Below are positions 1 through 43,974 of a stretch of DNA of 64,000 nucleotides, one piece after another. Origin of the DNA: Mugil cephalus (lineage: Eukaryota; Chordata; Actinopteri; Mugiliformes; Mugilidae); contig NC_061783.1 in NCBI RefSeq assembly GCF_022458985.1, forward strand, positions 6,292,413-6,356,412. The letters are read 5' to 3'. Below the pieces are notes generated by a model. That model made no database searches, was not told the DNA's origin, and saw only the letters and a program-made list of their open reading frames with translations. Numbering within the stretch: the first letter of the stretch is position 1; each line of letters opens with the position of its first letter. The position numbers and the translations under genes were made by a program.

Positions 1-47
1 CACACTAACATTGGGGGTATTTTAGGGAGTGTAGCAGGGAACTATAC

Positions 48-3000
48 CTCCAGGGAACTCTGTTGTAATCTGGCCGGACTGCAAGCGCCAACAGACTTTC
101 CCAGATTGGAAGGTCTGGCTACTGGCCATGACGGAAACAGACTTAATCTTCATTCCTGCTGAAGCAAAGTCAAACTTCCAGCTGATTTTGCCCGACGAAG
201 ATCCTTCCGTTCGGGCTATGTACACCTAAAGAAGAAATCCAGTCAGGTCATTACGCCTCAAACTACATTCCCCTATTGATTTACATCAGTTCAATGTGTT
301 TATGTTGTTGAGAGAGATTTCAATCCGTCCATCAACAGGTGAGAGAAGTTTTTCCAGCCCCATACTCACACTAAACTGCCATTTATCAGAATTTTATTCA
401 CTCAGTGTGACACTGTTAATGTCAGCTGCCGTCATTGGTTAATTAATTGTAATCTGCAACAATTTTTGTGACAGTTTGTTGTCAAGACACAAGAACGAAT
501 ACAAAATAACAAAATTAACGTTCTTCCCAAAGATCACATACATTTTCATCTACGTAAATAGGAAGCTGAGCTGGTTTAATTCAATCACGCACACATGCTC
601 TAATTGATGAGTCTTTTCTCCACTTGGGGCAGCATTACACCGATTCTATTTGAACACCTGAACATATCAGAGGTGTTAGAAGGGATTTGTAGTTCTAGTA
701 CAAGGCTGCTCCTTTCCATGTTCTTTTTAATCTCAAACAGCAACTGCAACTTCTTTCAAATTATAATGTTTTACTGTTGTCATTACAACGGATTTAACGA
801 CCTGCAGAATTCAGGTGAAACCAGTTTTACAGTGAATACTTTCCGCCTGTTGTACCATCTCTGCCGTGACTTCTACAAAGCTTTATCTGGGTTATTTGAT
901 CTTAAAAATATTAAACTACACTGACTTTTGACTTTCAGCCCTTTTACTATTTTAAGGATGTCAATGTCAAACACAATATGTCCCTTGAAGGTCTCTAAAC
1001 GTTATGGCTTTGCCAACTTAAATCAGTGAGGTGCTCCTTAAAAGAGTTTATGCTCATGAGCAGAAAGCCTCTGAAATAATTATCTGTGCTGTTTGTAACT
1101 AAAATAGAGTTGATCTAATAGTTAACCAAAGAAGGTCACAACTGGCCACAATCAAAGTGTTTGCATGTAATAAAAATGCCCCTTTGACACAAAAGGAATT
1201 CAATAGCTGTGCAATTAAACAGCAACATTAGTTCATTTAAGACTTTAAAATAATAAGTTTTGTTTCTCCCAGAATAGTACACATACCATCTGCCAGTCAT
1301 TCTCCACTTTTCTGAAGACAGACTCCTTCCTCCACACACACTGATCCCAGCTCTGGATGATCTCAGAGTTGTTGGACACTCGGCAGTACTGGTCTTTGGT
1401 GGCATTGTAGTGCACATGTAGTAACCCGGCACTCTTTTCTTCCTCGGTAGCAGTAAACACGAAACCTGAAACCTGACAGAATAAAAACACATTTAAAGAC
1501 ACTTCGTCTTCAGTAAAATAAGCATCTGAAATGTGCATCCAGTCTAAGAGAACTCAAACTATTAGACTGATCAGAGTACAACAGACAAGGTTTTGTAACC
1601 TCATCTTTTGGGACTGATTTTGGGTTCCACGCTGGTGTCCATTCATGCAGTTTTAGCTTTGTGCAAAGTAAATTCAACAAACATGGAAGCTACAGAGACT
1701 CGCAAACCCACAACCCTACAAGTGTGCTGCCTAAAGGGTGAATGCTGAATTAAAGGTTTGGCTTGAAACATCAGAAACGCAAACAGGAGAGACTGAGTCA
1801 ATGGTTTCATATAAAAATTCAATACGGAGAAGTTGTTTATCCGATCTTTTCAAGGTCGAGAGAGAGAGACGAGATTAGCCGACATTTCCAGTTCTTTCAC
1901 ATATTCTAGACATTACCTGTAAGTGGCAGCAGACAACTACTAGTTGCCATGGATTCCTTTGAGGGTTTATATATCCACACACACATTTTTATATATATAT
2001 ATAAATTCAGTATTCAGACAAAACTGGACCAATGTACAACTTCACTTATCTGTTGTGACCATTACAAAGAATATCTAAAAGCAAATATTAACAAAGTTTT
2101 GGGCACAATGATGTTGAGGTCTACTGAAATGTTCAGTGAATGTCTGTGTAAGTCTACTTGAAATGTACTGTACCTGTTCGGAGGTCCCTGTATCGGCCGC
2201 TCCAGTCTCGCCCCGGGCTACCCTCCAGGCCAGAGACCCAGAGTTGCGGCCCCCCAGCTCTCCTGGTTTTGGTTTCTTTGGAGAAATGAACTCAACAAGC
2301 TCAACAAGCAACCTCTCGGTCAGCTCCTTCTTCCTGTTCGTGTTCGTGTTCAGTGACTGTTGCCTCTTCAGAGTCAGAGCAGAAAGCAGAGTGGTTTACA
2401 CGACAGCCTCCAAAGCAACTCTTCTTGTATGCGGGGTTAAAGGGTGAAGACTTACTGAAGCATTGAGGCGATTGATGTTGTGCAGCAGCCAGGCCTCCTG
2501 AACTCTGGTCCTTCTGGACAAAACCTCTGGATGTTTACAGGAATACCTCCACGTCACATCGACTACCTGCCCCACAAACACACATTTGTCACTCTACACC
2601 AGTGAAAACACCTTTTGAAACAGTTCATTATCTTTCCTTCAACATCACAACAAAATGTGCATCCTAAAACTAAGTCTTACCTAGAAACTGATTCAGCGAC
2701 TAAACTGACTTAGCCAACAGGTGCTACTACTGTTGCCCATGAAAGGTATGTCATTTCCTCACACTGGGATTTTTAGCCTAAAAAACGACTTAAAAATCAC
2801 ACAATGAAACTATTCAACTCTTAGTTTCCTTTAACAATAATCACTGGCGTTTAAAACTAATGTTTGTCTGAAGTACAGATTATTCAGTTCAGTCAAGATA
2901 ATCTTTACAAATACTTTGTGTATATTCTCCAAAATCCCAGATCATGACTGTGCAACACAGCTTGTCCAAAGTGCTGCAAACTATTTATCAATTAAACAAT

Positions 3001-6000
3001 TAATCATTAATAATTTAATATAACACAAGTGAAAATTCAGATTCACTGTTGTAAGCTGTTTGTTTTTAGGTGAGGTTTTTTAAGTCATTGCTAGTTTTTA
3101 AATACATGCTGTCTGACAGTAAAAGGTATGTACATATAAAATACATATAAAATTGTTCACTGACAAACAGGATCTTAAACAGGCAAAAAAATCTCAAGTA
3201 AAAGTTAGTATTCAACTAATGATAACAAAAGCATCAACAGTCCTAATATGTGTCCATTTTTCTGACCTGTTCCTTAGAGAAAGCCAGGACGTAGGCCAGT
3301 TTCTTTCCCCAGCCGACCTCGTACAGCAGCGGTTTATCACAGACGTTCTCACACGAGTCACAGTGGAGCCAACGACGCTGGGAGACCGAGTAAACCTCCG
3401 TCCACACGTGGTCTGCAACAACACACAGCTAAAATAGCATCGCATGCTCTTAATATATTAAATTCATGTGTGAAGGAGTCCTGCCAACATGTAACAAAAG
3501 CGAAACTCATCTATATATGAGCATAATTAATCAAAACTAGTGTTCAGACGTCTGTGATGCTTCTCAGTTATATGGGTCATGTTAAACCTAAATACTGGTC
3601 TTGATGGAGTTCCTCAGGGTGCTTTCACACCCAGATTTTGCTACGATTCAGGGAGCAATATAATATCCTTGGTTCGGTTCATGCTCGCAGCGCAATCAAG
3701 ACAATGTTCTGACATGACTTTGTCAAAATCGGGGGAAGGAGAAGGAGAACGGACACTAGAAAAAGTCCCAAATAGAGAGAACAGAGAGGAAAAGAAACAA
3801 GACAACAGTGTTAAGCCTCACGTGGCCAGAGAATCTGAATCCCTGTGAACTCTGTCCATCTTAGGTACAAAAAAAACAAATCACAGCAGTCAATACAACA
3901 GTGTACTGTACTGCAGAGCAAAGATCTGTACATTGGGGGAAACAAAACTACACCTTCACAAACAGTGGTCACATGTCAGCAATCCACCTACACCTGAACA
4001 TCAAGGTACCTTCTTTTAAGGTTGAGAATGTCACAGTTAGATTGTTTCAAAGAGGGGTGAAAGAAACCATCAATATCAAAGTGCTAAAATTCTCACTAAG
4101 GGGTGGTCTTATCACTTATCAGTCTCTTACAATATAGTCTTATCTCCTACTCATGACTGAACCCTTGTAAAAGGGTAAGTAACAATTCACTTTTTAGATA
4201 TACTAAGACGCGGATGACCAAGATTATTCAAGGACAGAACGACTCACATGACGGCTAGTGGGTTAACAACACTATTGCCGTAACAACCGACTTCAATAAC
4301 TCTCAAAAGCTTGAGATTCCTAGGAGTCTGTTTAGAATAGAAGAAACAGGAAAGGTTTTTAAGAAACTCAAAAAACTCTAGTTGCTTTGTTTTAAATATT
4401 TAATAATAGTCTAGATAGGGCTGCAAGGAAAACGTGTTAACGCTGGCGCCTCGTTGGTCACTCATGTACATACCTGTGCTGTCCCAGATGTACCTGGCCT
4501 CAAGGCCAAGGGCTCTGCAGCACAGGGTGAAACAGTTTGCCCACTCCCCACAGCGCCCCCTCCTGGTTTCCAACAACTTCTCAGGATGGTTATACCTGAT
4601 GTTCACAACAAAGAGCAGAGGGAAGGCTCACAAACTGTATAGTGTGTAGAACATAGAAGAAAATACTAGCTGCATAACTTCTTTTACTACTTAAATCAAA
4701 TCTCAACCTGAACCCTAACTCATTCACTTAAGAAGATAAAAAAAAAGCAACGCCAACACATACCTGGGGAATCTGGTGGAGAGCTTGCAGCTCTCACAGT
4801 AATGGTTCTCCACTGTGTGAGCGCCCCAGCGGCTGTCATCATCATCGCTGGGACTGAGGGAGCCTGCATGACTGGTCGGCCCTCCACAGCGGCTACAGGG
4901 CAAGCGGTCCACCCAAGAGAAGAAGTCCTGCTTGAACCACCTGAGCAACTCTAGTACCAGGAAGTCTTCTATTCCAAGTTTACAACCTACAAACAAGACA
5001 CCAAGTAATTTCGTTTAAACCCCCTGAAGCATCCAGACCTCAAACAGATAGCTTTAATGAAAGTGTGACAGGGCATCACCTGGGTCAGCCTCAACAGCAG
5101 CTCTGAGGTTTTTTTGAGCAGCAGAGGACAGCTCATGATGAGGGATGCAGTCCCTGGCCTTCTGCTGCAGCTCAGGGTTTTCGTACATCATCACATGTTC
5201 GAAGTTAGATTGAAGTGTCCTTAAGAAGCTTATACAGCTCTTCTGACAAACAGAAAGACATCCGGATCTCAACCCATGTCACCCAAAGAGGATATTCATT
5301 ACAACCTGGTGTATTTACAACAACACACACACCAGAGGGAAAAAGTGTGAGCTCCCAGCAGCAAAGAAACTAAATTAATTTTGTTTGCAGACTGACTGAA
5401 TACAAAGAACTGTAACAGCTGCAATTCGCAATGGTGGTTTTTATCCCACGCACCATTATAGGTAGGTAAAAGTGGATAACAGCAGTTTTACAGGTGCCTG
5501 ATTCCTGTGTTTACTTTCTTCATTTCCCCAATTCACTACAACAGAAGTTAACATGAGACATAGAGACAAATGGCACAAATTTATGGGTAAAACACCAGGT
5601 TGAAATTTTGAGAATCTGCCGAGATATGTTGAAATACAGCAGTTTTAAAAAGTTGTGAGGAACATTTCTCAATTTTTAAAGTCTCTTTAGTTGCAGACAA
5701 GACCAAGGATTAATAGAAAATAATATTGCCTGCCTAATCAATAATATAAATATATTTGGTGATGACGGGGCAAAATTCACAATAATGTTTAGAGACATTT
5801 GCATGAATTACAAAAAAAGGCTAAAATAAAATGATTGAAAATATAAATATGAAGCAAGGGGAAATCAGTTAATATCAATTCATTTAAATAAGAAACGCTA
5901 CAAAAAAGAAAGAAGCCTGCCTTTAGTAAAAGAAAAAAAAAAAGAAAAAAAGAAAAAATACCTCTCGCCTCTGATCCTGACCAACCCACCAGCCCTGATC

Positions 6001-7305
6001 ATATTCCTATGACACTTTGACACCAGAGTTACTGGATGATCTGAAGCCGGCTTGATGTCGACTTTCACCGTCAGCCTCCTCTGTGTACTTTCCATACCGA
6101 TATGAGTGGTGAATACTTTCGATGTCTTCATATGGTCTCGATCACTTCACTGAAGAAGAAAATGTCCTTACCAGGGATGATGGCTGCTGTGCGGGCGGTG
6201 TAACTGGCTGGCTGGAGGCAGCGGCAGAGTCCACTGGCGCTGAGGCTGAGGCTACAACTGGCCGAGTGGCAGACTGGACAGGACCCCCTCCATTCAGTCT
6301 CTGATCCCTCTCTGCTGCAATGGATTCCCTGATGAGCTTCAGCCGCTCCACTGATGCAGACTTGGGGAAGACCAAGTGAGTCTCAGCCTGAAAAACCAAG
6401 TAGTTTACGCTCAGGTATGCGAATGCCTGGATGCGCAAAATGATTCTAGGCAATGACATAGGCTAATAGTTATAATAGTTACCTCCTCAAATCCCATCTC
6501 AAAGAGACATTCCACAGCACCTTTGATGGGCAGCAGCTTGGTGGAGAAGGTAGGGTTGCCAATACGAATCGACCTGTACTTCTCTTCGTTGGGAAACCTG
6601 TTGGGGTGATGCATGATGATCATGTGAGGGAGTAGTAGCTGGTTGTCAGTTCGTTTTTTCACTTTATGCGAGAACTAGACCAACGTTTCCAACATTTCTC
6701 AGAGACATTAGAATACAAAAACAAGGCATTCCTACAGAAATTTCGGAGATAATTCTCAAACGCACTGGTGTTTTTCAGATAATGTTGGGAGAGGCACAAG
6801 TAAATAGTTTAAGTTAACAACTGTGAAGTGGGTGTGTCAGATCACGCTGAATTCACAACACCCTGCTGCAACAAGTAATTTTTGACAAATATTCTTTACA
6901 TATGTTGTAATAGGTTTTGATACAATTACGAAATAATAGTATATAAAGTAGTATTAGTAGTAGGCTGTTCAACTCGTCCTCAGTACGCCCCCTATGAATC
7001 CGCCTCTGGTCCTGACTTGCGCTTCTTAGTTCAGTCGTAATGTTAAATAAATAGGCGCGTTGTCACACGTAAAGACCAAAAGACAAGAATGTCAGCTATT
7101 ACTGTGTTTTACTTGACAGTCTGTTTCTAAAAACAAACAAAAAAAGAGCTCGAGCTTGACATACAACATCGCAAATGTGCCTTCCTCTCTTGTGAGAACC
7201 TTACCTTAAAATGTTGTCCGCGTATGTTAGTAACAACTTGGCGACGTCAAGGAAGACTTCAGTCGGATTTTCACTCAGTGTTGTGACCGCCGGTGACGCA
7301 GCCAT
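48..7305 (-). CDS. ngly1: NGLY1 copy A, peptide:N-glycanase 1 (3' end outside window)
   Basis: Cytosolic deglycosylase that removes N-glycans from misfolded glycoproteins exported from the ER, acting with VCP/p97 and the proteasome. Eleven coding exons on the minus strand: 7205-7305, 6483-6597, 6172-6387, 5080-5242, 4764-4986, 4474-4595, 3267-3412, 2456-2566, 2174-2365, 1287-1472 and 48-225. All have GT-AG borders and consistent phases. The final exon lies left of the window; using copy B's last exon the protein would be about 642 residues (human 654). Seen: an N-terminal PUB domain (about 12-99) with KYRSIRIGN; a Ser/Ala/Pro-rich linker; zinc-type cysteines C229, C232, C262 and C265; a transglutaminase-like core with catalytic C288 (RCGEW), H315 (DHVW) and D332 (HCD); and a C-terminal PAW domain. 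The triad sits exactly 21 residues before human C309/H336/D353. The start ATG is the first in a short leader facing OXSM. Confidence 0.96.
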
Positions 7306-7824
7306 GTTCGGGTTTACTTGCACGAGCGGAACCGTCCCGACACTTTTGAATTTGACTGCTAATGCTAACCGTGGCTAACTGACCGGGTCCTGAATGAAGC
7401 TGCCCTAGAAAAAGCCTATATAAATGCTACTTTTATGAAGCTGCTTTATAATGTCGTATTTGCTCGTTTTGTTTTGTTTTTTTGCAAAATAAATTCAGTT
7501 AAGCAGTGATAGATGATTCCATATTGTGGTATTGGCGTACGTGCGTTTTATTTTATATTTACAAGTGAATCGGTTCAGGCGTTTACTAGTACTACATACT
7601 ACGTTAGCTGCTCATGTGCAAATCAGAGGATGACATGAACGCGTCTTAACGAGTGACACTTAACGTTTAGCAAGTTCCCTGCTAAGTAATTTTTGAACTG
7701 AACATCCGTTTTGTGTGGAAGATATTTCACTTTTTGATTCGTTAAGTCTCCTTTCAGACCCTTATAGGAGAGTGATCGATGCTTAAAGCTAGCTGGCTGT
7801 CAAAGTTAGCAGAAAGATAGCAGA
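7306..7824. promoter_or_regulatory. Shared divergent promoter interval of NGLY1-A and OXSM-A
   Basis: These 519 bases separate the NGLY1 start codon (minus) from the OXSM start codon (plus), so both promoters and both 5' leaders must lie here. It is GC-richer near the NGLY1 end, becoming AT-rich toward the middle. A TATA-like TATATAAA occurs near 7417, but in a head-to-head housekeeping pair this may be chance. The same interval is kept in unit B with scattered substitutions and small indels. Divergent transcription is inferred from the gene layout; no start site can be read directly. Confidence 0.7.
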
Positions 7825-9949
7825 ATGTCTGCTTTATCAGTGTATTCCTGGACTAAACTCCAGTTGAGAACGCAGAGCATAATGTCTCTTCTCCAAAAGA
7901 ATGTCTGCATTTGTCCAAATCAAAATACAAGGCATCTCAGCTCTGGACAGCAGCACAGAAGGAGGGTTGTCGTTACTGGCATTGGGTTGGTGTGTCCTCT
8001 GGGCACGGGGACTGCTGTGCCCTGGGACCGCCTGATCAAAGGTCAGAGTGGCATTGTCGCTCTGGAGTCACAGGACTACAGGACTGTCCCTTGCAAAGTG
8101 GCAGCTTTGGTTCCGAGAGGGACGGAAGAGGGAGAGTTTGTGGATGAGAGGTTTGCCTCACGTGGGGAGATTAACAGCATGTCCCCAGCCACAGTGATGG
8201 CCCTCGGGGCCGCTCAGCTGGCCCTGGAGGACTCGGGGTGGTCCCCCAGGAGTGAAGAGGAGCAGCTCAACACCGGGGTGGCTGTTGGCATGGGCATGGT
8301 GTCGCTGGAGGAGATCGCTCGCACCTCCGCTGCCTTCCAAGAAAAGGGCTACAACAAAGTGAGTCCCTTCTTCGTGCCTCGCATCCTCGTCAACATGGCC
8401 GCCGGGCACATCAGCATAAAGCACAAACTGAAGGGCCCCAACCACGCAGTGTCTACAGCGTGCACCACAGGCACGCACGCAATAGGCGACGCAGCTAGGT
8501 TCATTGCCCACGGGGATGCCGTTGCCATGGTCACGGGGGGGACAGAATCGTGTGTCGGGCCCCTCTCAATAGCCGGCTTTGCCAGGGCACGTGCGCTCGC
8601 CACAAAATGGAACGACAGTCCCACGCTCGCATCGAGACCCTTTCACCCAGAGAGGGAGGGCTTTGTGATGGGAGAAGGAGCAGCCGTGCTCCTCCTGGAG
8701 GAACTGGACCACGCAGTGAAAAGAGGAGCCAGAGTCTACGCAGAGGTCCTCGGATACGGACTGTCCGGGGATGCTAGTCACATCACTGCACCCACTGCAG
8801 ATGGGGATGGAGCATTCAGGTCACTCACTTTTATAATATGCAATGTGACAAAATATTCCAACTTATTCCGCAGAACTGCTCACTTTAATTCCTGCAGGTT
8901 GGAAATCATACCATAAGTCTGCTTAACCTGCAACTGCAGGGTCACAAGACGGTGACACAAACAGAAAAGCACAATTGATTTTGTAGTTTTATCTCTTCTT
9001 GAATTGCAAGTTAAACTTGCAATAAAATTGGGTTGCCATTGCTTTAAAGGATTGTTTTCTAATAATAGTCTTATAGTTTTCTTGTAGTTTTTGTCAGCAT
9101 TTATCATCAGTAATTACAGCACTGTGTGCACCAAGTTAAAGTCAGTTTGTTTCCAGCAGATGGTCATGCAGATGGTGAGGAGAGATGGGGAGGTTTCTGG
9201 AAATACCTTAAAAGTTATTAACCAAGATTATGGGTTTTCCGACAGTTCTGTTAATTGATTTGTGTGCCAAAACATGAGAGGCAGGCACTGGGGCTAATTT
9301 GGGAAAACACATCACCATAAAACGTCAGACCAAATGTCTGCAGAATTTAGTGATAATTTCGGGGTTTGCAAAAAAAATCTAAAATATATTGACTGGTGCA
9401 ACATTAATTTCTCAGATGTGGGAGTATGGAAACATAACTTAAACAAATTAAGTTGAGGAAAATAGAACAGTGACATCAGCCACAACAACAATGGGGTAGT
9501 TGTTATAAACCTGCGATATTCTTTACCTCATCCATTGTCTCTACAGGTGCATGTCTGCAGCCTTAAGGGACGCAGGCGTCTCACCGGAAGACGTCACATA
9601 CATCAACGCCCACGCCACATCCACGCCTTTGGGCGACGCAGCAGAAAACGCAGCCATCAAGAGGCTCTTCCAGCAAAGCGCAGCCAACCTGGCTGTCTCC
9701 TCCACCAAGGGAGCCACAGGACATCTACTCGGGGCCGCTGGTGCCCTCGAGGCAGCGTTCACCGCTATGGCCTGCTACCACGGGGTCCTGCCCCCAACCC
9801 TCAACCTGGATCGCACAGAGCCAGAGTTTGACCTGAATTACGTCCCCTGCACGGCTCAGGCGTGGCGGACTCTGGGGCGGCGCGTCGCCCTCACGAACTC
9901 GTTTGGATTCGGCGGCACAAACGCCTCACTGTGTCTCGGTAGCATGTGA
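7825..9949 (+). CDS. oxsm: OXSM copy A, mitochondrial 3-oxoacyl-ACP synthase
   Basis: Beta-ketoacyl-ACP synthase of mitochondrial type II fatty-acid synthesis. It condenses malonyl-ACP with a growing acyl-ACP in the matrix and supports octanoate/lipoate supply. Two coding exons, 7825-8819 and 9547-9949, joined within an Arg codon (AG|G), give 465 residues (human about 459). Seen: an Arg-rich, acid-poor N-terminus (about 1-47) typical of mitochondrial import; the thiolase fold from RRVVVTGIG onward; active-site C213 (STACTTG), H354 (INAHATSTP), K386 (SSTKGATGH) and H391; and the C-terminal FGFGGTNA glycine loop. A second in-frame Met at codon 20 (7882) is an alternative start. Residue 217, four after the catalytic Cys, is Thr here but Ala in copy B and human. 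The intron is 727 bp. Confidence 0.97.
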
Positions 9950-10131
9950 TAACACACTGGGGCTGTTGTGTTAAAAATGTGATCTGACCCAGGCTGTACT
10001 CTTCACCTCTGAAGCGGTTCTAATGAACTGACGATGTGACCTCCTCCACAGACACTGGGACTGATCTTGTGGGTTTTCATTAACCGGCTTTGAGTAGTAT
10101 ATTAGGATAAAAATTCAGATGGTAGTATTCA

Positions 10132-10137
10132 AATAAA
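10132..10137 (+). terminator. Likely polyadenylation signal of OXSM-A
   Basis: AATAAA lies 183 bases past the OXSM-A stop codon. The matching site in unit B reads AATACA. Unit B instead has an AATAAA at 22202-22207, where unit A has AATGAA. Confidence 0.55.
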
Positions 10138-10170
10138 CTGTGAAAGTCAGAGGTGAACCAAGCTGAAATA

Positions 10171-10573
10171 CAGTGATCAGCCACAACATTAAAACCACCA
10201 GCCTGTGAAGTGAAAAACATTAATGATCTCATTAATGTTATTACTGTTATGTACTAACTATTTATTTTGATTCCTGCCACCACCTGAACATTGACCAAGG
10301 ACAACTCCTTTCTCTTCCTCCTCCTCCTCCCCATTGATCATTGGTCCCTTGGTCTCTGGTCCTTCTCCTTCCTTTGACCACTGTTGATAGATCATAAAAG
10401 CAGAGCAGAAACACCCAACAACAGCGGCAGTTCTGGAGATGTTCTGACCCAGTCGTCAAGTCATAACAGTTTCATCCTTGTCAAAGTCTCCTGTCATCAA
10501 CTTTAAGGACAAAATGTCCAACTTGCTGCCTGAGAACATACTTCACCTGTTAGTGGTTATAATATTATGGCTG
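10171..10573. mobile_element. Tc1/mariner-type MITE in unit A
   Basis: A non-autonomous element starting CAGTGATCAGCCACAACATT and ending with the rough inverse (GGTTATAATATTATGGCTG), flanked by TA on both sides as expected for Tc1/mariner targets. It carries a polypyrimidine stretch and no open transposase frame. The body resembles a Tc1-ended repeat family common in teleosts. A homologous copy sits at the same place in unit B (22369-22745), so it inserted before the duplication. Confidence 0.75.
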
Positions 10574-11334
10574 TACACTGCCCAGCCTGAAATTCCCCAA
10601 ATGGTGGCCCTCGCTATCAAGACTCGTACCAGCCACCTTTCTAGTCAGCATTTGCACCAAGTTGCACCAGAATATATTTAATATATTGTATGTCAGTTTG
10701 GTTAATGCAACCATTAAATTAAATTAAAAAAAAACAAGTTCCTCTTCCCTGAAGTGCTGTGAAACCTCGAAAATATAACACCTGTTAATTACGCTACTCA
10801 TACATTTTTCCAACATTGCATGCATGTAGACTCATGGCAAAAGGATTTCTGTTTGACTCTGAATAATGCTCTGCCTTAATGGCTTTATATGTTTGTGATA
10901 ACATGTTAACGTGGCATGTGGGATACAATGGACATGTGCAGGGGGGGTGTAGGGAAGGGAGGCGGTCCATCTAGTTGATGATGGCAGGCGATGTTGTTCT
11001 CTTGACCGGATAAAGAATTGAAAATAATTTATATGTGACAAACATTTGTTTGATGTTCATTTAAAGGGGGCACCGGTCTCATGGAGGTAATCAAGTAGGA
11101 TAACAGACAAACGGACAAGCGGTGGCACAGTAGGCCTAAACTTCCAACAAAGATGCTAACCGGGACACTTGCTTCAAAATAAATACTGTACAAAATGCGC
11201 GCGCTGAATAGGTTTACAGTTTCACGTGGAGAAAAAAACACATTAAAACAGTCGCTTGACTGGAACGCTTGGGGAAAAGACACAATTAAATACGTTTCAT
11301 TTAGAAATAAAACGAATATTAGCTAACAGTAGCT

Positions 11335-11530
11335 ACCGATGTCCGGCTCCGCCATCTGCAAGATAGACGGCGAATCGTCTCGCATATAAACCGACCAATC
11401 AGACGGCTGCTTTTCAAAAGCACCGGCATTTAGACCAATAGGAAACGTCGGCTTGCTCGTCTTCCAACGCAAGATGGCGGCAAAGACTCAGTCAAGCATC
11501 AGCCCTGGAAGAGCTCACAGTCAGTAATAT
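11335..11530. promoter_or_regulatory. Orphan CCAAT/YY1-type promoter, possible truncated first exon
   Basis: Two CCAAT boxes in the same direction (GACCAATCAG near 11394 and GACCAATAGG near 11433) sit between two ATGGCGG motifs that face outward. On the plus strand AAGATGGCGGC at 11471 is a textbook YY1 site and opens a 17-codon frame ending at 11527. On the minus strand ATGGCGGAG at 11355 opens six codons and then meets a GT donor (exon 11337-11355). This is the look of a housekeeping promoter with a first exon whose gene body was left behind at the breakpoint. In human the neighbour on this side of NGLY1 is TOP2B, transcribed away from it, which makes TOP2B a candidate; the few residues do not prove it. 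Confidence 0.5.
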
Positions 11531-11753
11531 AATACATATGTTATTATCACAGCTTTACACTTTAGACTCCACAACCACACTACAAAAATATCTTTATTAC
11601 CATACACTACATGAGTTCTTTTCATCACAGCAACTCAAAAATTAATCTGATCCATTTAGAATTGCAAACACACATCACTGGGTATGACCAGATGCAAAAA
11701 AACAAACAACAACAACAAAAAAAAACATAATACACACTCACCAAAAGAGACAG

Positions 11754-11759
11754 TTTATT
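11754..11759 (-). terminator. Possible polyadenylation signal of NGLY1-B
   Basis: Reads AATAAA on the minus strand, about 320 bases past the NGLY1-B stop codon. A nearer canonical signal was not noticed. Confidence 0.35.
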
Positions 11760-12081
11760 ACAAACAACAGATCTGGAGCCACATGCGCTCCCTTGCGTAC
11801 TATGTGGAATGTCTCCGCGCATCACATATGACCAGCAGATTCACAGTGGAGGCAAATTGTCAAAAAAAAAAAAAAAAAACTTATATGGCTTTATGGTTTT
11901 TAAAAGATAAACATTAAAAGGTTCAATTCAATCATCTATCATTAGGCCATGCATGTTCTATCGTCCTGGAGAGAATACACATTTATATAGTGCACTGATT
12001 TTGTCAAGAGGTGCCTGTCGCCTCCACAGTTTGGTAAAGAACAATTATGGGTTAATTTTTTTTTTAAGTTAAAAACTACTG

Positions 12082-15000
12082 TTAAGCATCTTGAAGGTAG
12101 ATTAGGATTTCAAATGATGACTCCTCTGTGTCCTTCAGGCTCTGTCTGAACAGCTGAGTGTGCTGCCACGAGACATCCCCATCTCCCCCGCTGAGTTCTG
12201 CTGCTACAATGAGCTCTGAAGCTCCAGACATAGAGGAGAACGATTCCATCTTTCCATCTAAGGGTTCAAAAGCAGAGAAATCATTAAAGGAATCATGTGA
12301 CACACTAACATTTGGGGGTATTTTAGGGAGTGTAGCAGGCAACTATACCTCCAGGGAACTCTGTTGTAATCTGGCCGGACTGCAAGCGCCAACAGACTTT
12401 CCCAGATTGGAAGGTCTGGCTACTGGCCATGACGGAAACAGACTTAATCTTCATTCCTGCTGAAGCAAAGTCAAACTTCCAGCTGATTTTGCCCGACGAA
12501 GACCCTTCCGTTCGGGCTATGTACACCTAAAGAAGAAGTCCAGTCAGGTCATTACGCCTCAAACTACATTCCCCTATTGATTTACATCAGTTCAATGTGT
12601 TTATGTTGTTGAGAGAGATTTCAATCCGTCCATCAACAGGTGAGAGAAGTTTTTCCAGCCCCATACTCACACTAAACTGTCATTTATCAGAATTTTATTC
12701 ACTCAGCGTGACACTGTTAATGTCAGCTGCCGTCATTGGTTAATTAATTGTAATCTGCAACAATTTTTGTGACAGTTTGTTGTCAAGACACAAGAACAAA
12801 TACAAAATAACAAAATTAACGTTCTTCCCAAAGATCACATACATTTTCATCCACGTAAATAGGAAGCTGAGCTGGTTTAATTCAATCATGCACACATGCT
12901 CTAATTGATGAGTCTTTTCTCCACTTGGGGCAGCATTACACCGATTCTATTTGAACACCTGAACATATCAGAGGTGTTAGAAGGGATTTGTAGTTCTAGT
13001 ACAAGGCTGCTCCTTTCCTTGTTCTTTTTAATCTCAAACAGCAACTGCAACTTCTTTCAAATTATAATGTTGTCTGTTGTCATTACAACGGATTTAACGA
13101 CATGCAGAATTCAGGTGAAACCAGTTTTATAGTGAATTCTTTCCGCCTGTTGTACCATCTCTGCCCTGACTTCTACAAAGCTTTATCTGGGTTATTTGAT
13201 CTTAAAAATATTAAACTACACTGACTTTTGACTTTTAGCCCTTTTACTATTTTAAGGATGTCAATGTCAAACACAATATGTCCCTTGAAGGTCTCTAAAC
13301 GTTATGGCTTTGCCAACTTAAATTAGTGAGGTGCTCCTTAAAAGAGTTTATGAGCAGAAAGCCTCTGGAATAATTATCTGTGCTGTTTGTAACTAAAATA
13401 GAGTTGATCTAATAGTTAACCAAAGAAGGTCACAACTGGCCACAATCAAAGTGTTTGCATGTAATAAAAATGCCCCCTTTGACACTAAAGGAATTCAATA
13501 GCTGTGCAATTAAACAGCAACATTAGTTCATTTAAGACTTTAAAATAATAAGTTTTGTTTCTCCCAGAATAGTACACATACCATCTGCCAGTCATTCTCC
13601 ACCTTTCTGAAGACAGACTCCTTCCTCCACACACACTGATCCCAGCTCTGGATGATCTCAGAGTTGTTGGACACTCGGCAGTACTGGTCTTTGGTGGCAT
13701 TGTAGTGCACATGTAGTAACCCGGCACTCTTTTCTTCCTCAGTAGCAGTAAACACGAAACCTGAAACCTGACAGAATAAAAACACATTTAAAGACACTTC
13801 GTCTTCAGTAAAATAAGCATCTGAAATGTGCATCCAGTCTAAGATAACTCAGACTATTAGACTGATCAGAGTACAACAGACATGGTTTAGTAACCTCATC
13901 TTTTGGGACTGATTTTGGGTTCCACGCTGGTGTCCATTAATGTAGTTCTAGCTTTGTGCAAAGTGAATTCAACAAACATGGAAGCTACAGAGACTCGCAA
14001 ACCCACAACCCTACAAGTGTGCTGCCTAAAGGGTGAATGCTGAATTAAAGGTTTGGCTTGAAACATCAGAAACGCAAACAGGAGAGACTGAGTCAATGGT
14101 TTCATATAAAAATTCAAAACAAAGAAGTTGTTTATCCGATTTTTTTCAAGGTCGAGAGAGAGACGAAATTAGCCGACATTTCCAGTTCTTTCACATATTC
14201 TAGACATTACCTGTAAGTGGCAGCAGACAACTACTAGTTGCCATGGATTCCTTTGGGGGTTTATATATCCACACACACATTTTTATATATATATATATAA
14301 ATTCAGTATTCAGACAAAACTGGACCAATGTACAACTTCACTTATCTGTTGTGACCATTACAAAGAATATCTAAAAGCAAATATTAACAAAGTTTTGGGC
14401 ACATTGATGTTGAGGTCTACTGAAATGTTCAGTGAATGTCTGTGTAAGTCTACTTGAAATGTACTGTACCTGTTCGGAGGTCCCTGTATCGGCCGCGCTA
14501 GTCTCGCCCCGGGCTACCCTCCAGGCCAGAGACCCAGAGTTGCGGCCCCCCAGCTCTCCTGGTTTTGGTTTCTTTGGAGAAATGAACTCAACAAGCTCAA
14601 CAGGCAACCTCTCGGTCAGCTCCTTCTTCCTCTTCCTCTTCCTCTTCGTGTTCGTGTTCAGTGACTGTTTCCTCTTCAGAGTCAGAGCAGAAAGCAGAGT
14701 GGTTTACACGACAGCCTCCAAAGCAACTCTTCTTGTATGCGGGGTTAAAGGGTGGAGACTTACTGAAGCATTGAGGTGATTGATGATGTGCAGCAGCGAG
14801 GCCTCCTGAACTCTGGTCCTTCTGGACAAAACCTCTGGACGTTTACAGGAATACGTCCACGTCACATCGACTACCTGCCCCACAAACACACATTTGTCAC
14901 TCTACACCAGTGAAAACACCTTTTGAAACAGTTCATTATCTTTCCTTCAACATCATAAAGAAATGTGCATCCTAAAACTAAGTCTTACCTAGAAACTGAT

Positions 15001-18000
15001 TCAGCGACTAAACTGACTTAGCCAACAGGTGCTACTACTGTTGCCCTTGAAAGGTATGTCATTTCCTCACACTGGGATGTTTAGCCTAAAAACGACTTAA
15101 AAATCACACAATGAAACTATTCAACTCTTAGTTTCCTTTAACAATAATCACTGGCGTTTAAAACTAATGTTTGTCTGAAATACAGATTATTCAGTTCAGT
15201 CAAGATAATCTTTACAAATACTTTGTGTATATTCTCCAAAATCCCAGATCATGACTGTGCAACACAGCTTGTCCAAAGTGCTGCAAACTATTTATCAATT
15301 AAACAATTAATCATTAATAATTTAATATAACACAAGTGAAAATTCAGATTCACTGTTGTAAGCTGTTTGTTTTTAGGTGAGGTTTTTTAAGTCATTGCTA
15401 GTTTTTAAATACATGCTGTCGGACAGTAAAAGGTATGTACATATAAAATACATATAAAATTGTTCACTGACAAACAGGATCTTAAACAGGCAAAAAATCT
15501 CAAGTAAAAGTTACATTTCAACTAATGATAACAAAAGCATCAACAGTCCTAATATGTGTCCATTTTTCTGACCTGTTCCTTAGAGAAAGCCAGGACGTAG
15601 GCCAGTTTCTTTCCCCAGCCGACCTCGTACAGCAGCGGTTTATCACAGACGTTCTCACACGAGTCACAGTGGAGCCAACGACGCTGGGAGACCGAGTAAA
15701 CCTCCGTCCACACGTGGTCTGCAACAACACACAGCTAAAATAGCATCGCATGCTCTTAATATATTAAATTCATGTGTGAAGGAGTCCTGCCAACATGTAA
15801 CAAAAGCGAAACTCATCTATATATGAGCATAAATAATAAACTAGTGTTCAGACGTCTGTGATGCTTCTCAGTTATATGGGTCATGTTAAACCTAAATACT
15901 GGTCTTGATGGAGTTCCTCACGGTGCTTTCACACCCAGATTTTGCTACGATTCAGGGAGCAATATAATATCCTTGGTTAGGTTCATGCTCGCAGCGCAAT
16001 CAAGACAATGTTCTGACATGACTTTGTCAAAATCGGGGGAAGGAGAAGGAGAACGGACACTAGAAAAAGTCCCAAATAGAGAGAACAGAGAGGAAAAGAA
16101 ACAAGACAACAGTGTTAAGCCTCACGTGGCCAGAGAATCTGAATCCCTGTGAACTCTGTCCATCTTAGGTACAAAAAAAACAAATCACAGCAGTCAATAC
16201 AACAGTGTACTGTACTGCAGAGCAAAGATCTGTACATTGGGGGAAACAAAACTACACCTTCACAAACAGTGGTCACATGTCAGCAATCCACCTACACCTG
16301 AACATCAAGGTACCTTCTTTTAAGGTTGAGAATGTCACAGTTAGATTGTTTCAAAGAGGGGTGAAAGAAACCATCAATATCAAAGTGCTAAAATTCTCAC
16401 TAAGGGGTGGTCTTATCACTTATCAGTCTCTTACAATATAGTCTTATCTCCTACTCATGACTGAACCCTTGTAAAAGGGTAAGTAACAATTCACTTTTTA
16501 GATATACTAAGACGCGGATGACCAAGATTATTCAAGGACAGAACGACTCACATGACGGCTAGTGGGTTAACAACACCATTGCCGTAACAATCCACTTCAA
16601 TTACTCTCAAAAGCTTGAGATTCCTAGGAGTCTGTTTAGAATAGAAGAAACAGGAAAGGTTTTTAAGAAACTCAAGAAACTCTAGTTGCTTTGTTTTAAA
16701 TATTTAATAATAGTCTAGATAGGGCTGCAAGGAAAACGTGTTAACGCTGGCGCCTCGTTGGTCACTCATGTACATACCTGTGCTGTCCCAGATGTACCTG
16801 GCCTCAAGGCCAAGGGCTCTGCAGCACAGGGTGAAACAGTTTGCCCACTCCCCACAGCGCCCCCTCCTGGTTTCCAACAACTTCTCAGGATGGTTATACC
16901 TGATGTTCACAACAAAGAGCAAAGGGAAGGCTCACAAAATATTTACTGTGTAGAACATAGAAGAAAATACTAGCTGCATAACTTCTTTTACTACTTAAAT
17001 CAAATCTCAACCTGAACCCTAACTCATTCACTTAAGAAGATAAAAAAAAAAAGCTACGCCAACACATACCTGGGGAATCTGGTGGAGAGCTTGCAGCTCT
17101 CACAGTAATGGTTCTCCACTGTGTGAGCGCCCCAGTGGCTGTCATCATCGCTGGGCCTGAGGGAGCCTGCATGACTGGTCGGCCCTCCACAGCGGCTACA
17201 GGGCAAGCGGTCCACCCAAGAGAAGAAGTCCTGCTTGAACCACCTGAGCAACTCTAGTACCAGGAAGTCTTCTATTCCAAGTTTACAACCTACAAACAAG
17301 ACACCAAGTAATTTCGTTTAAACCCCCTGAAGCATCCAGACCTCAAACAGATAGCTTTAATGAAAGTGTGACAGGGCATCACCTGGGTCAGCCTCAACAG
17401 CAGCTCTGAGTTTGTCTTGAGCAGCAGAGGACAGCTCATGATGAGGGATGCGGTCCCTGGCCTTCTGCTGCAGCTCAAGGTTTTCGTACATCATCACATG
17501 TTCGAAGTTGGATTGAAGTGTCCTTAAGAAGCTTATACAGCTCTCCTGACAAACAGAAAGACATCCGGATCTCAACCCATGTCACCCAAAGAGGATATTC
17601 ATTACAACCTGGTGTATTTACAACAACACACACACCAGAGGGAAAAAGTGTGAGCTCCCAGCAGCAAAGAAACTAAATTAATTTTGTTTGCAGACTGACT
17701 GAATACAAAGAACTGTAACAGCTGCAATTCGCAATGGTGGTTTTTATCCCATGCACCATTATAGGTAGGTAAAAGTGGATAACAGCAGTTTTACAGGTGC
17801 CTGATTCCTGTGTTTACTTTCTTCATTTCCCCAATTCACTACAACAGAAGTTAACATGAGACATAGAGACAAATGGCACAAATTTATGGGTAAAACACCA
17901 GGTTGAAATTTTGAGAATCTGCCGAGATATGTTGAAATACAGCAGTTCTAAAAAGTTGTGAGGAACATTTCTCAATTTTTAAAGTCTCTTTAGTTGCAGA

Positions 18001-19485
18001 CAAGACCAAGGATTAATAGAAAATAATATTGCCTGCCTAATCAATAATATAAATATATTTGGTGATGACGGGGCAAAATTCACAATAATGTTTAGAGACA
18101 TTTGCATGAATGACAAAAAAGGCTAAAATAAAATGATTGAAAATATAAATATGAAGCGAGGGGAAATCAGTTAATATCAATTCATTTAAATAAGAAACGC
18201 TACAAAAAAGAAAGAAGCCTGCCTTTAGTAAAAGAAAAAAAAAAAGAAAAAAAGAAAAAATACCTCTCGCCTTTGATTCTGACCAACCTCTGATTCACCG
18301 GCCCTGATCATATTGATCATATTCCTATGACACTTTGACACCAGAGTTACTGGATGATCTGAAGCCGGCTTGATGTCGACTTTCACCGTCAGCCTCCTCT
18401 GTGCACTTTCTATACTGATATGAGTGGTGAATACTTTCGATGTCTTCATATGGTCTCGATCACTTCACTGAAGAAGAAAATGTCCTTACCCTCTCTGCTG
18501 CAATGGATTCCCTGATGAGCTTAAGCTGCTCCACTGATGCAGACTTGGGGAAGACCAAGTGAGTCTCAGCCTGAAAAACCAAGTAGTTTACGCTCAGGTA
18601 TGCGAATGCCTGGATGCGCAAAATGATTCTAGGCAATGACATAGGCTAATAGTTATAATAGTTACCTTCTCAAATCCCATCTCAAAGAGACATTCCACAG
18701 CACCTTTGATGGGCAGCAGCTTGGTGGAGAAGGTAGGGTTGCCAATACGAATCGACCTGTACTTCTCTTCGTTGGGAAACCTGTTGGGGTGATGCATGAT
18801 GATCACATGAGGGAGTAGTAGCTGGTTGTCAGTTCCTTTTTTCACTTTATGCGAGAACTAGACCAACGTTTCCAACATTTCTCAGAGACATTAGAATACA
18901 AAAACAAGGTATTCCTACAGAAACTTCGGAGATAATTCTCAAACGCACTGGTGTTTTTCAGACAATTTTGGGAGAGGCACAAGTAAATAGTTTAGGTCAA
19001 CTACTGTGAAGTGGGTGTGTCAGATCACGCTGAATTCACAACACCCTGCTGCAACAACTAACTTTTGACTAATATTCTTTACATATGTTGTAATAGGTTT
19101 TGATAAAATTACGAAATAATAGTATATAAAGTAGCATTAGTAGTAGGCTGTTCAACTCGTCCTCAGTACGCCCCCTATGAATCCGCCTCTGGTCCTGACT
19201 TCCGCTTCTTAGTTCAGTCGTAATGTTAAATAAATAGGTTGTCATACGTAAAGACCAAAAGACAAGAATGTCAGCTATTACTGTGTTTTACTTGACAGTC
19301 TGTTTCTAAAAAACAAACAAAAAAAGAGCTCTAACTTGACATACAACATCGCAAATGTGCGTTCCTCTCTTGTGAGAACCTTACCTTAAAATATTGTCCG
19401 CGTATGTTAGTAACAACTTGGCGACGTCCAAGAAGACTTCAGTCGGATTTTCACTCAGTGTTGTGACCGCCGGTGACGCAGCCAT
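12082..19485 (-). CDS. ngly1: NGLY1 copy B, peptide:N-glycanase 1 paralogue (complete)
   Basis: Complete tandem paralogue of NGLY1-A with 12 coding exons: 19385-19485, 18666-18780, 18490-18570, 17383-17545, 17070-17289, 16778-16899, 15573-15718, 14764-14874, 14470-14673, 13582-13767, 12349-12526 and 12082-12257. They sum to 1803 nt (600 aa plus stop) with all phases consistent. The triad is retained at C242, H269 and D286, as are the four zinc-type cysteines, so deglycosylation is plausible. Differences from copy A: exon 3 lacks 45 codons of the linker after the PUB domain; exon 5 lacks one Asp codon; exon 9 has four extra codons giving KRKRKRKK (363-370). Changes at positions where copy A agrees with human include GFEE to GFEK at the exon 2 end, YENP to [12 protein letters not shown] to TWTYSCKR (323, 328), and a Pro at 377 in a hydrophobic stretch. 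No stop or frameshift is seen. Confidence 0.95.
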
Positions 19486-19995
19486 GTTCGGGTTTACTCG
19501 CACGAGCGGAACCGTCCTGGCACTTTTGAATTTGATTGCTAATGCTAACCGTGGCTAACTGACCGGGTCCTGAATGAAGCTGCCCTAGAAAAAGCCTATA
19601 TAAATGCTACTTTCACGAAGCTGCTTTATAATGTCGTATTTGATTGTTTTGTTTTGTTTTTTTGCAAAATAAATTCAATTAAACAGTGATAGATGTTTCC
19701 ATACTGCGGCATTGGCGTACGTGCGTTTTATTTTATATTTACAAGTGAATCAGTTCAGGCGTTTACTAGTACTACATACTACGTTAGCTGCTCATGTGCA
19801 AATCAGAGGATGACATGAACGTGTCTTAACGAGTGACACTTAACGTTTAGCAAGTTCCCTGCTAAGTAATTTTTGAACTTAACATCCGTTTTGTGTGGAG
19901 GATATTTCATTTGTTAAGTCTCTTTCAGACACTTATAGGAGAGTGATCGATGCTTAAAGCTAGCTGGCTGTCAAAGTTAGCAGAAAGATAGCAGA
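19486..19995. promoter_or_regulatory. Shared divergent promoter interval of NGLY1-B and OXSM-B
   Basis: These 510 bases between the two start codons correspond to 7306-7824 in unit A. The TATATAAA-like motif is kept. Small differences include a few missing bases just upstream of the OXSM start region. Divergent promoter function is inferred from layout. Confidence 0.7.
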
Positions 19996-22129
19996 ATGTC
20001 TGCTTTATCAGTGTATTCCTGGACTAAACTCCAGTTGAGAACGCAGAGCATAATGTCTCTTCTCCAAAAGAATGTCTGCATTTGTCCAAATCAAAATACA
20101 AGGCATCTCAGCTCTGGACAGCAGCACAGAAGGAGGGTTGTCGTTACTGGCATTGGGTTGGTGTGTCCTCTGGGCACGGGGACTGCTGTGCCCTGGGACC
20201 GCCTGATCAAAGGTCAGAGTGGCATTGTCGCCCTGGAGTCCCAGGACTACAGGACTGTCCCTTGCAAAGTGGCAGCTTTGGTTCCGAGAGGGACGGAAGA
20301 GGGAGAGTTTGTGGATGAGAGGTTTGCCTCACGTGGGGAGATTAACAGCATGTCCCCAGCCACAGTGATGGCCCTCGGAGCCGCTCAGCTGGCCCTGGAG
20401 GACTCGGGGTGGTCCCCCAGGAGTGAAGAGGAGCAGCTCAACACCGGGGTGGCTGTTGGCATGGGCATGGTGTCGCTGGAGGAGATCGCTCGCACCTCCG
20501 CTGCCTTCCAAGAAAAGGGCTACAACAAAGTGAGTCCCTTCTTCGTGCCTCGCATCCTCGTCAACATGGCCGCCGGGCACATCAGCATAAAGCACAAACT
20601 GAAGGGCCCCAACCACGCAGTGTCTACAGCGTGCACCACAGGCGCACACGCAATAGGCGACGCAGCTAGGTTCATTGCCCACGGGGATGCCGTTGCCATG
20701 GTCACAGGGGGGACAGAATCGTGTGTCGGGCCCCTCTCAATAGCCGGCTTTGCCAGGGCACGTGCGCTCGCCACAAAATGGAACGACAGTCCCACGCTCG
20801 CATCGAGACCCTTTCACCCAGAGAGGGAGGGCTTTGTGATGGGAGAAGGAGCAGCCGTGCTCCTCCTGGAGGAACTGGACCACGCAGTGAAAAGAGGAGC
20901 CAGAATCTACGCAGAGGTCCTCGGATACGGACTGTCGGGGGATGCCAGTCACATCACTGCACCCACTGCAGATGGAGATGGAGCATTCAGGTCACTCACT
21001 TTTATAATATGCAATGTGACAAAATATTCCAACTTATCCCGCGAAACTGCTCACTTTAATTCCTGCAGGTTGGAAATCATACCCTAAGTCTGCTTAACCT
21101 GCAACTGCAGGGTCACAAGACGGTGACACAAACAGAAAAGCACAATTGATTTTGTAGTTTTATCTCTTCTTGAATTGCAAGTTAAACTTGCAATAAAATT
21201 GGGTTGCCATTGCTTTAAAGGATTGTTTTCTAATAATAGTCTTATAGTTTTCTTGTAGTTTTTGTCAGCATTTATCATCAGTAATTACAGCACTGTGTGC
21301 ACCAAGTTAAAGTCAGTTTGTTTCCAGCAGATGGCCATGCAGATGGTGAGGAGAGATGGGGAGGTTTCTGGAAATACCTTAAAAGTTATTAACCAAGATT
21401 ATGGGTTTTCCGACAGTTCTGCTAATTGATTTGTGTGCCAAAACATGAGAGGCAGGCACTGGGGCTAATTTGGGAAAACACATCACCATAAAAACGTCAG
21501 ACCAAATGTCTGCAGAATTTAGTGATAATTTGGAGGTTTGCAAAAAAAAACAAAAAATCTAAAGTATATTGACTGGTGCAACAATAATGTGTCAGATGTG
21601 GGAGTACGGTAACATAACTTAAACAAATTCAGTGGAGCAAAGTAGAACAGTAACATCAGCCATAACAACGATGGAGTAGTTGTTACAAACCTGCAGTATT
21701 CTTTACCTCATCCATTGTCTCTACAGATGCATGTCTGCAGCCTTAAGGGACGCAGGCGTCTCACCGGAAGACGTCACATACATCAACGCCCACGCCACAT
21801 CCACGCCTTTGGGCGACGCAGCAGAAAACGCAGCCATCAAGAGGCTCTTCCAGCAAAGCGCAGCCAACCTGGCTGTCTCCTCCACCAAGGGAGCCACAGG
21901 ACATCTACTCGGGGCCGCTGGTGCCCTCGAGGCAGCGTTCACCGCTATGGCCTGCTACCACGGGGTCCTGCCCCCAACCCTCAACCTGGATCGCACAGAG
22001 CCAGAGTTTGACTTGAATTACGTCCCCTGCACGGCTCAGGCGTGGCGGACTCTGGGGCGCCGCATCGCCCTCACAAACTCATTCGGATTCGGCGGCACAA
22101 ACGCCTCACTGTGTCTCGGTAGCATGTGA
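19996..22129 (+). CDS. oxsm: OXSM copy B, mitochondrial 3-oxoacyl-ACP synthase
   Basis: Tandem paralogue of OXSM-A with the same role in mitochondrial type II fatty-acid synthesis. Coding exons 19996-20990 and 21727-22129 give 465 residues with the same split Arg codon and a 736-bp intron. The active site is intact (C213, H354, K386, H391), as is the Arg-rich N-terminal import region. By eye it differs from copy A at about 17 of 1398 coding bases, with only three amino-acid changes: T217A, V304I and V445I. Residues 217 (Ala) and 304 (Ile) here match human. The excess of silent changes implies both copies have been under protein-level constraint. An open frame reads back from exon 2 into the intron, but the CAG acceptor at 21726 and the match to human set the exon border. 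Confidence 0.97.
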
Positions 22130-22201
22130 TAACACACTGGGACTGTTGTGTTAAATATGTGATCTGACCCAGGCTGTACTCTTCACCTCTGATGCGGTTT
22201 T

Positions 22202-22207
22202 AATAAA
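22202..22207 (+). terminator. Likely polyadenylation signal of OXSM-B
   Basis: AATAAA lies 73 bases past the OXSM-B stop. It replaces the more distal signal used in unit A, which is mutated to AATACA here. Confidence 0.5.
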
Positions 22208-22368
22208 CTGACGATGTGACCTCCTCCACAGACACTGGGACTGATCCTGTGGGTTTTCATCAACCGGCTTTGAGTAGTATATTAGGATAAAAATTCCGAT
22301 GGTAGTATTCAAATACACTGTGAAAGTCAGAGGACATTGTATCGTGATCTGTGAACCAAGCTGAAATA

Positions 22369-22745
22369 CAGTGATCAGCCACAACATTAAAACCACCAGC
22401 CTGTGAAGTGAAAAACATTAATGATCTCATTAATGTTATTGCTGTTATGTACTTACTATTTATTTTGACAAGCACAACTCCTTTCTCTTCCTCCTCCTCC
22501 TCCCCATTGATCATTGTTCCATTGGTCTCTGGTCCTTCTCCTTCCTTTGACCACTGTTGATAGATAGTGATCATAAAAGCAGAGCAGGAACACCCAACAA
22601 GAGCGGCAGTTCTGGAGATGTTCCGACCCAGTCGTCAAGTCATAACAGTTTCATCCTTGTCAAAGTCTCCTGTCATCAACTTTAAGGACAAAATGTCCAA
22701 CTTGCTTCAGACTTCACCTGTTAGTGGTTATAATATTACGGCTCA
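22369..22745. mobile_element. Tc1/mariner-type MITE in unit B
   Basis: Partner of the element at 10171-10573, with the same left terminus and TA flank. It has an internal deletion of about 25 bases near 22470 and a disrupted right end (ATTACGGCTCACAG). It is shared by descent rather than a separate insertion. Confidence 0.7.
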
Positions 22746-23290
22746 CAGGTGTACCCAGGTGTAGCTAGCCTGAAAGTCCCCAAATGGTGGCCCTCGCTAT
22801 CAAGACTTGTACCAGCCACCTTTCTAGTCAGCATTTGCACCAAGTTGCACCAGAATATATTTAATATACTGTACGTCAGTTTGGTTAATGCAAAAAAAAA
22901 AAAAAACAAGTTCCTCTTTCCTGAAGCGTTGTGAACCCTCGAAAATATAACACTTGTTAATTACGCTACTCATACATTTTTTCAACATTGCATGCATGTA
23001 GACTCATGGCGAAAGAATTTCTGTTTGACTCTGAATAATGCTCTGCCTTAATGGCTTTATATGTTTGTGATACCATGTTAACGTGGCATGTGGGATACAA
23101 TGGACATGTGCAGGACGGGTGTAGGGAAGGGAGGTGGTCCACTAGTTGATGATTTAAGGTGATGTTGTTCTCTTGACCGGATAAAGAAGTGAAAATAATC
23201 TATATGTGACAAACATTGTTTGATGTTCATTTAAAGGGGGCACCGGTCTCATGGAGGTAATCAAGTAGGATAACAGACGAACAGAAAAGA

Positions 23291-43600: not shown

Positions 43601-43974
43601 AAACCAGTAAGTAGGAAGCACATCTTGGCACCTTATATAGTGACAGGAAAGCCCTGTAAGCTTTAATACCCTTCAGTACTGATGAGACTGCTGCTCGTCC
43701 TTGTCATCTTAATCCTGAATGTATCCTGCAAGTATAACAGTATTCATTGGTAAGGATGTTGTACCTCAACTCTCATTTATATTCCTGTATTTGGCAAATA
43801 TCAAAACCACAACAACAAAATGTGGATTCAGAGAAACGCAATAAAAAGATCCCATTAGATTCTTTCCTATGGGTGACCGTTTTACAAAAAATGGCTTTAA
43901 GGTTAATGAAATGAAGCACTCAGAGTTATTTCATACAAAGTACTGTATAAACAAACTAAGTTCTTACAGTTTTT

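Follow-up and report, generated by a model that had tools for sequence, protein, structure and literature searches.

The window, i.e. the whole stretch of 64000 bases that we analysed, harbours at its left end two copies, A and B, of a unit containing the head-to-head genes NGLY1 and OXSM. In the self-BLAST comparison of the window, positions 1-6172 match 12301-18490 (97.7% identity) and positions 6306-11119 match 18489-23289 (95.1% identity), both in the same direction. These are the only two off-diagonal matches at E 1e-20 across the window, and no third copy was found by that comparison. The global alignment of 1-11119 with 12301-23289 contains 242 substitutions over 10909 aligned bases and 29 indels. 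The homology between the copies ends sharply, at 11119 in A and 23289 in B. There is no N in the 64000 bases, and thus no assembly gap between the copies. The copies were delimited as follows.

1..11119, no strand: copy A of the duplicated unit, delimited by self-BLAST and by its alignment with 12301-23289; judging from copy B, its left end would lie ~1.05 kb further, before base 1
11120..23289, no strand: copy B, spanning 12170 bp provided that the tandem junction is 11119|11120

If the tandem is exact, the unit runs from 11120 to 23289 (12170 bp), and the left end of copy A and exon 12 of NGLY1-A would precede base 1. The segment 11120-12300 has no counterpart inside the window, as its copy A equivalent would also sit before base 1. 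Two direct, adjacent copies with a common sharp boundary, as in a true tandem duplication, are therefore present, the left boundary of copy A being outside the window. In the window, neither 11120-12080 nor 23290-24600 has any match besides itself (E 1e-3, dust on). Near both right ends, only short imperfect repeat pairs of no more than 26 nt were found (within each of 9950-12300 and 22100-24600).

The two units comprise the following genes and features.

48..7305, minus strand: NGLY1 copy A, exons 1-11 of 12, with GT/AG at the intron ends seen and 584 codons visible
7305-7205, 6597-6483, 6387-6172, 5242-5080, 4986-4764, 4595-4474, minus strand: NGLY1-A exons 1-6
3412-3267, 2566-2456, 2365-2174, 1472-1287, 225-48, minus strand: NGLY1-A exons 7-11
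12082..19485, minus strand: NGLY1 copy B, 12 exons including the stop, 600 codons, frame open
19485-19385, 18780-18666, 18570-18490, 17545-17383, 17289-17070, 16899-16778, minus strand: NGLY1-B exons 1-6
15718-15573, 14874-14764, 14673-14470, 13767-13582, 12526-12349, 12257-12082, minus strand: NGLY1-B exons 7-12
7825..9949, plus strand: OXSM copy A, 465 codons in two exons, 7825-8819 and 9547-9949 (stop included); residue 217, four positions past the conserved Cys213, is Thr
19996..22129, plus strand: OXSM copy B, 465 codons in two exons, 19996-20990 and 21727-22129 (stop included); residue 217 is Ala, like its human equivalent
7306..7824 in A and 19486-19995 in B, no strand: interval separating the start codons of NGLY1 and OXSM, presumed shared promoter, with 24 substitutions over 510 aligned bases
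10171..10580, no strand: MITE-like terminal-inverted-repeat element with 41-bp imperfect arms, in copy A
~22370-22752: counterpart of the 10171-10580 element in copy B, its limits deduced from the alignment

The first-pass annotation had proposed a tandem duplication of the NGLY1-OXSM pair. The sequence backs the direct repeat, which contains both genes, the stretch between their start codons and the downstream MITE twice in the same orientation as claimed, with NGLY1-A seen for 11 of its 12 exons only. All 11 visible exons of copy A and 12 of copy B could be placed with GT/AG ends and consistent phases, and NGLY1-B has intact splice sites and no stop within its 600 codons. As exon 12 of copy A falls outside the window, the completeness of NGLY1-A cannot be asserted, and its PAW match stops at profile position 140 of 197. 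Both NGLY1 copies contain PUB, Transglut_core and PAW domains (Pfam) and match the mouse core, PUB and PAW chains of solved structures. The catalytic Cys, His and Asp are retained in NGLY1-A and NGLY1-B, so that each copy has the PUB domain, the transglutaminase-like core with its triad and the PAW domain of an NGLY1 protein. A candidate plus-strand gene at 11473-12217 was dropped, its reading near 12140-12217 being the antisense of NGLY1 exon 12.

Both OXSM genes code for full-length ketoacyl synthases (Pfam) with the Cys motif STACTTG, and copy A, on which the structure comparison was run, matches solved structures of the human mitochondrial 3-oxoacyl-ACP synthase. In A (8461-8475 for codons 213-217), codon 217 reads ACG (Thr), versus GCA (Ala) in B (20632-20646), i.e. 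two base differences in a single codon of an otherwise constrained gene.

In the segment 11320-11500, we noted CCAAT boxes upstream of a short minus-strand reading that begins with MAEPDI near 11360 and ends at a possible donor. This segment may hold the promoter and exon 1 of the following gene, truncated at the unit's left breakpoint. To the right of the repeat, the longest stop-to-stop reading of 23290-64000 is 154 codons in ~40 kb. That region looks gene-poor as judged from such readings, which spliced genes with short exons could escape. A fragment at 43331-43663 presumably resembles the terminal part of a Tc1-type transposase. Pfam was searched with ten large ORFs right of 23290, picked from the 365 that have at least 45 codons and use more than nine residue types. 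One, this fragment, matched DDE_3 below the cut-off (25.4 versus the curated 28.6 bits), two gave weaker sub-threshold matches (RnaseA, DUF2069) and seven had no match. The segment 51989-52043 is related to the arm sequence of the inverted-repeat element at 10171-10580. One tandem repeat array was detected, at 55429-55464, and no Rfam match was obtained at gathering scores.

The two genes of the unit differ markedly in their substitution patterns. Between the OXSM copies we counted three nonsynonymous and 14 synonymous changes (dN 0.0029, dS 0.0416, dN/dS 0.069), versus 20.5 and 7.5 between exons 1-11 of the NGLY1 copies (dN 0.0165, dS 0.0214, dN/dS 0.771). The contrast in nonsynonymous and synonymous counts has a Fisher p of 0.0002-0.0007, depending on rounding. 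The coding sequence of OXSM has diverged by 17/1398 (1.22%), compared with 104/2361 for its intron, promoter and downstream sequence (p 1.5e-8). For NGLY1, coding sequence (28/1616, 1.73%) and introns (93/5534, 1.68%) have diverged equally (p 0.91). The probability of at least 20 nonsynonymous changes among the 28 of NGLY1 is 7e-7 at an omega of 0.1, 0.001 at 0.2, 0.026 at 0.3 and 0.27 at 0.5; with 28 changes, the dN/dS of 0.77 thus weakly rejects an omega of 0.3 and does not reject 0.5. NGLY1-B looks released from constraint, and the two OXSM copies, of 465 codons each and with a dN/dS of 0.07, bear out the earlier claim of two intact OXSM genes.

Selection on NGLY1-B may nevertheless have lasted until recently. 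The three coding indels between A and B (135, 12 and 3 bases) all keep the frame, versus six of 26 noncoding indels with a length divisible by 3, and no stop interrupts the 600 codons. The 135-bp gap was counted as a coding indel here, the script having placed it in noncoding sequence by one base.

Noncoding divergence between the copies is mosaic, with 73/4956 (1.5%) left of A 6622, in the NGLY1 half, and 124/2939 (4.2%) to its right, in the OXSM half. A step of this size was reached by none of 1000 site permutations and by 2/2000 permutations of 100-base blocks. When the sequence beyond A 10000 was omitted, the divergence of the right side was 3.7 to 3.8%, and the step was reached by 28/2000 (100-base) and 74/2000 (200-base) block permutations. 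After the duplication, gene conversion may have lowered the divergence of the NGLY1 half. Recombination between haplotypes would explain the step too.

The latter possibility belongs to a different account of the locus, in which two haplotypes of a single-copy NGLY1-OXSM locus were assembled in series and 11119|11120 is an assembly join. Steps in divergence occur between haplotypes too, and the 1.5% of the NGLY1 half is within their reach, such a value being attainable between two haplotypes in a diverse fish. The 4.2% noncoding divergence of the OXSM half and the OXSM dS of 0.042 would, in contrast, be very high for alleles of one vertebrate. A dN/dS of 0.77 in NGLY1 beside 0.07 in OXSM would also be odd for alleles, given the probabilities of 7e-7 and 0.001 obtained at omega values of 0.1 and 0.2. 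According to excerpts of PMC9516828, such heterotype errors accounted for 4 to 16% of the three older assemblies studied, and their marks are haploid depth, gaps between copies, discordant reads and single-copy k-mers. The locus resembles them in having adjacent near-identical copies in one sequence. Unlike them, it has no gap between the copies, and its divergence and dN/dS, as read from the sequence, are not allele-like. The lack of N at 11119|11120 is no proof of the join, however, and the same excerpts mention some false duplications joined without an assembly gap. Altogether, we regard a false duplication as doubtful, if a contender that deserves to be taken seriously.

A true duplication might also segregate in the species as a copy-number polymorphism, one haplotype being single-copy. 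Our sequence results fit this sub-case equally well, and an allele-specific tandem duplication within one contig is mentioned in the excerpts of PMC9516828. Nevertheless, the ~4% divergence of the OXSM half points to an age by which a duplication would more commonly have been fixed or lost, and we hold such a polymorphism to be unlikely.

We then considered the changes that distinguish the NGLY1 copies, the main ones being the following.

6172..6306, minus strand: 135 bp, i.e. 45 codons after the PUB domain, in exon 3 of copy A; missing in copy B beside 18490, as seen from the aligned bases and the in-frame product
14764..14874, minus strand: NGLY1-B exon 8, with Arg-to-Thr at human R390/mouse R387 and His-to-Arg at human position 395
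14470..14673, minus strand: NGLY1-B exon 9, with Leu replaced by Pro two positions ahead of the Glu of helix 12 (mouse E437); 12 bp longer than in copy A, in frame

In exon 3 of NGLY1-B, the cut ends exactly at the splice donor of that exon (GTAAGG), a G/GG microhomology being common to both ends, and the product of the 45-codon loss is in frame. The long form of exon 3 is probably ancestral, since the mouse PUB construct extends beyond the position of the cut and its residues there align to RLNG of copy A. The region between the PUB domain and the core of human NGLY1 is described as flexible and disordered in the parts of PMC12248763 consulted. The claim of open frames throughout holds for the visible parts of the genes. 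With 45 codons gone from exon 3 of NGLY1-B and 18 replacements between it and A, however, the NGLY1 copies are intact to different degrees.

Two of the other changes affect the core. Counting from the catalytic Cys, residue 369 of the fish proteins corresponds to human 390 and mouse 387; it is Arg in A and Thr in B, so that NGLY1-B lacks the Arg anchor of a working NGLY1 enzyme equivalent to human R390. The proline of NGLY1-B sits at mouse Ile435 (I435) of helix 12, two residues before Glu437. Section 3.6 of PMC12248763 has mouse R387 anchoring helix 12 via E437/E440, plus E337. Thr at the R387/R390 position and Pro at I435 of the partner helix would therefore change two parts of one predicted contact.

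The patient table of PMC8997433 includes R390P, R390Q and R390X, and R390P is likewise found in PMC7012742. The R390Q protein is unstable in cell models according to PMC12248763, which also reports very low reporter signal in cells into which its pathogenic variants were knocked in; R390Q and R401* are the ones named in the legends. The discussion of PMC11065741 states that the mutant proteins of three patients, apparently including L318P/R390P, lack activity. Thr at this position appears in none of the portions of the NGLY1 variant literature consulted. Since the replacements at the R390 position and in helix 12 would both alter the same predicted contact, NGLY1-B is probably weak or inactive. 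The expectation of two intact peptide:N-glycanases was thus not borne out, in view of the missing 45 codons, the dN/dS of 0.77 and core changes expected to be damaging.

The polarity of the NGLY1 replacements was assessed with mouse as the reference. At the 18 aligned replacements, the mouse residue equals that of A at seven, that of B at two and neither at nine; this 7:2 polarity toward A has a p of 0.09. The replacement at site A 100, one of the 18, is an artefact that the deletion produces in the alignment; what actually changed there is Lys145 of A, which is Glu in B. Mouse agrees with B for the one-codon length difference in exon 5. With BLASTP, the mouse core scored 403 bits against NGLY1-A and 389 against NGLY1-B, versus 187 for each with the yeast core. 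The Pfam Rad4-type core gave 34.1 bits for A and 23.5 for B; Transglut_core was nearly equal (68.4 and 68.1), and PUB was higher in B (85.9 for A, 87.1 for B). The larger share of the likely damage thus lies in NGLY1-B, but not all of the change does.

Alternatively, both NGLY1 copies might be working, with NGLY1-B diverging adaptively, e.g. toward other partners through its shortened linker. Its 12 exons out of 12 placed with splice sites and frame intact, its coding indels all in frame (3/3) and its retained catalytic Cys, His and Asp are consistent with this. The coding rate equals the intron rate with no sign of an omega above 1, however, and the replacements strike the R390 anchor and its partner helix, which makes adaptive divergence quite improbable. 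An even slimmer chance is that NGLY1-B is retained, without its linker and with weak catalysis, as a PUB-PAW protein that would bind p97 and glycans without cutting, as a regulator or decoy of NGLY1-A. For this putative non-cutting role, the Neurospora PNGase offers a comparison, being reported to act without enzyme activity in the part of PMC8997433 consulted.

On balance, we think it probable that the locus arose by a true tandem duplication after which both OXSM genes were kept and NGLY1-B was relaxed, becoming weak or inactive. We favour a true duplication on the grounds of the gapless direct repeat with one sharp end, the ~4% noncoding divergence of the OXSM half and the NGLY1 dN/dS of 0.77. 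A tandem duplication of ~12.2 kb would have copied the head-to-head pair. Both OXSM genes would have been retained as working enzymes, and NGLY1 function would be supplied by copy A. Freed from selection, NGLY1-B would be hypomorphic or inactive, though its frame and splice sites are still open. Exchange between the copies after the duplication (gene conversion) would have reduced the divergence of the NGLY1 half.

If the duplication is real, it has separated the fates of two head-to-head genes, with OXSM doubled under constraint. A spare NGLY1 would then tolerate a substitution at the position of human R390, where changes cause disease if there is no spare, and the locus would provide a natural fish comparison for the effects of NGLY1 variants. 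Should it be an artefact of assembly, it would caution against claims based on gene counts. In the library of articles searched, no paper combines ngly1, oxsm and duplication. Among the matches listed for duplicated genes or paralogs in fish, none mentions ngly1, and among those listed for OXSM with zebrafish, none is relevant by title. Literature pairing any two of ngly1, oxsm and bidirectional promoter includes none on fish or duplication by title, and the parts of PMC9234281 consulted contain nothing on NGLY1 copy number.

Having two peptide:N-glycanases had been called unusual for a fish. Two PNGases, cytosolic Ngly1 and acid Ngly2, are already reported in fish in excerpts of PMC12753239, so that a pair of them would not in itself be unusual; two NGLY1 genes would be a different matter. 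As a working duplicate would be, Ngly2 is a second de-N-glycosylating enzyme in fish. It differs, according to the same excerpts, in having a PNGase F-type domain and in being another gene, not the one duplicated here.

Cytosolic peptide:N-glycanase of mouse (2F4M, 2D5U, 2G9G) and human NGLY1 share with both copies the PUB domain, the transglutaminase-like core with its Cys/His/Asp triad and the PAW domain. In copy B, unlike in these proteins, 45 codons that follow the PUB domain are missing, the R390 position is occupied by Thr and helix 12 contains a Pro. Human OXSM (2C9H, 2IWY) is likewise a ketoacyl synthase, with 68.0% (A) and 68.7% (B) identity over 291 columns of the human piece. Here the gene is present twice, and at residue 217, close to the motif Cys, copy A carries Thr, whereas B agrees with human in having Ala. 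The duplication is ordinary in kind, and its interest is that OXSM and NGLY1 parted ways after one event and that a natural Thr is found at the position of human R390. Tandem duplicates whose copies meet unequal fates are common. As in those, the unit here is direct, and one gene is constrained between the copies and the other is not; unlike in those, it is two head-to-head genes of a single unit that diverge in fate, though the stretch between them was copied with both.
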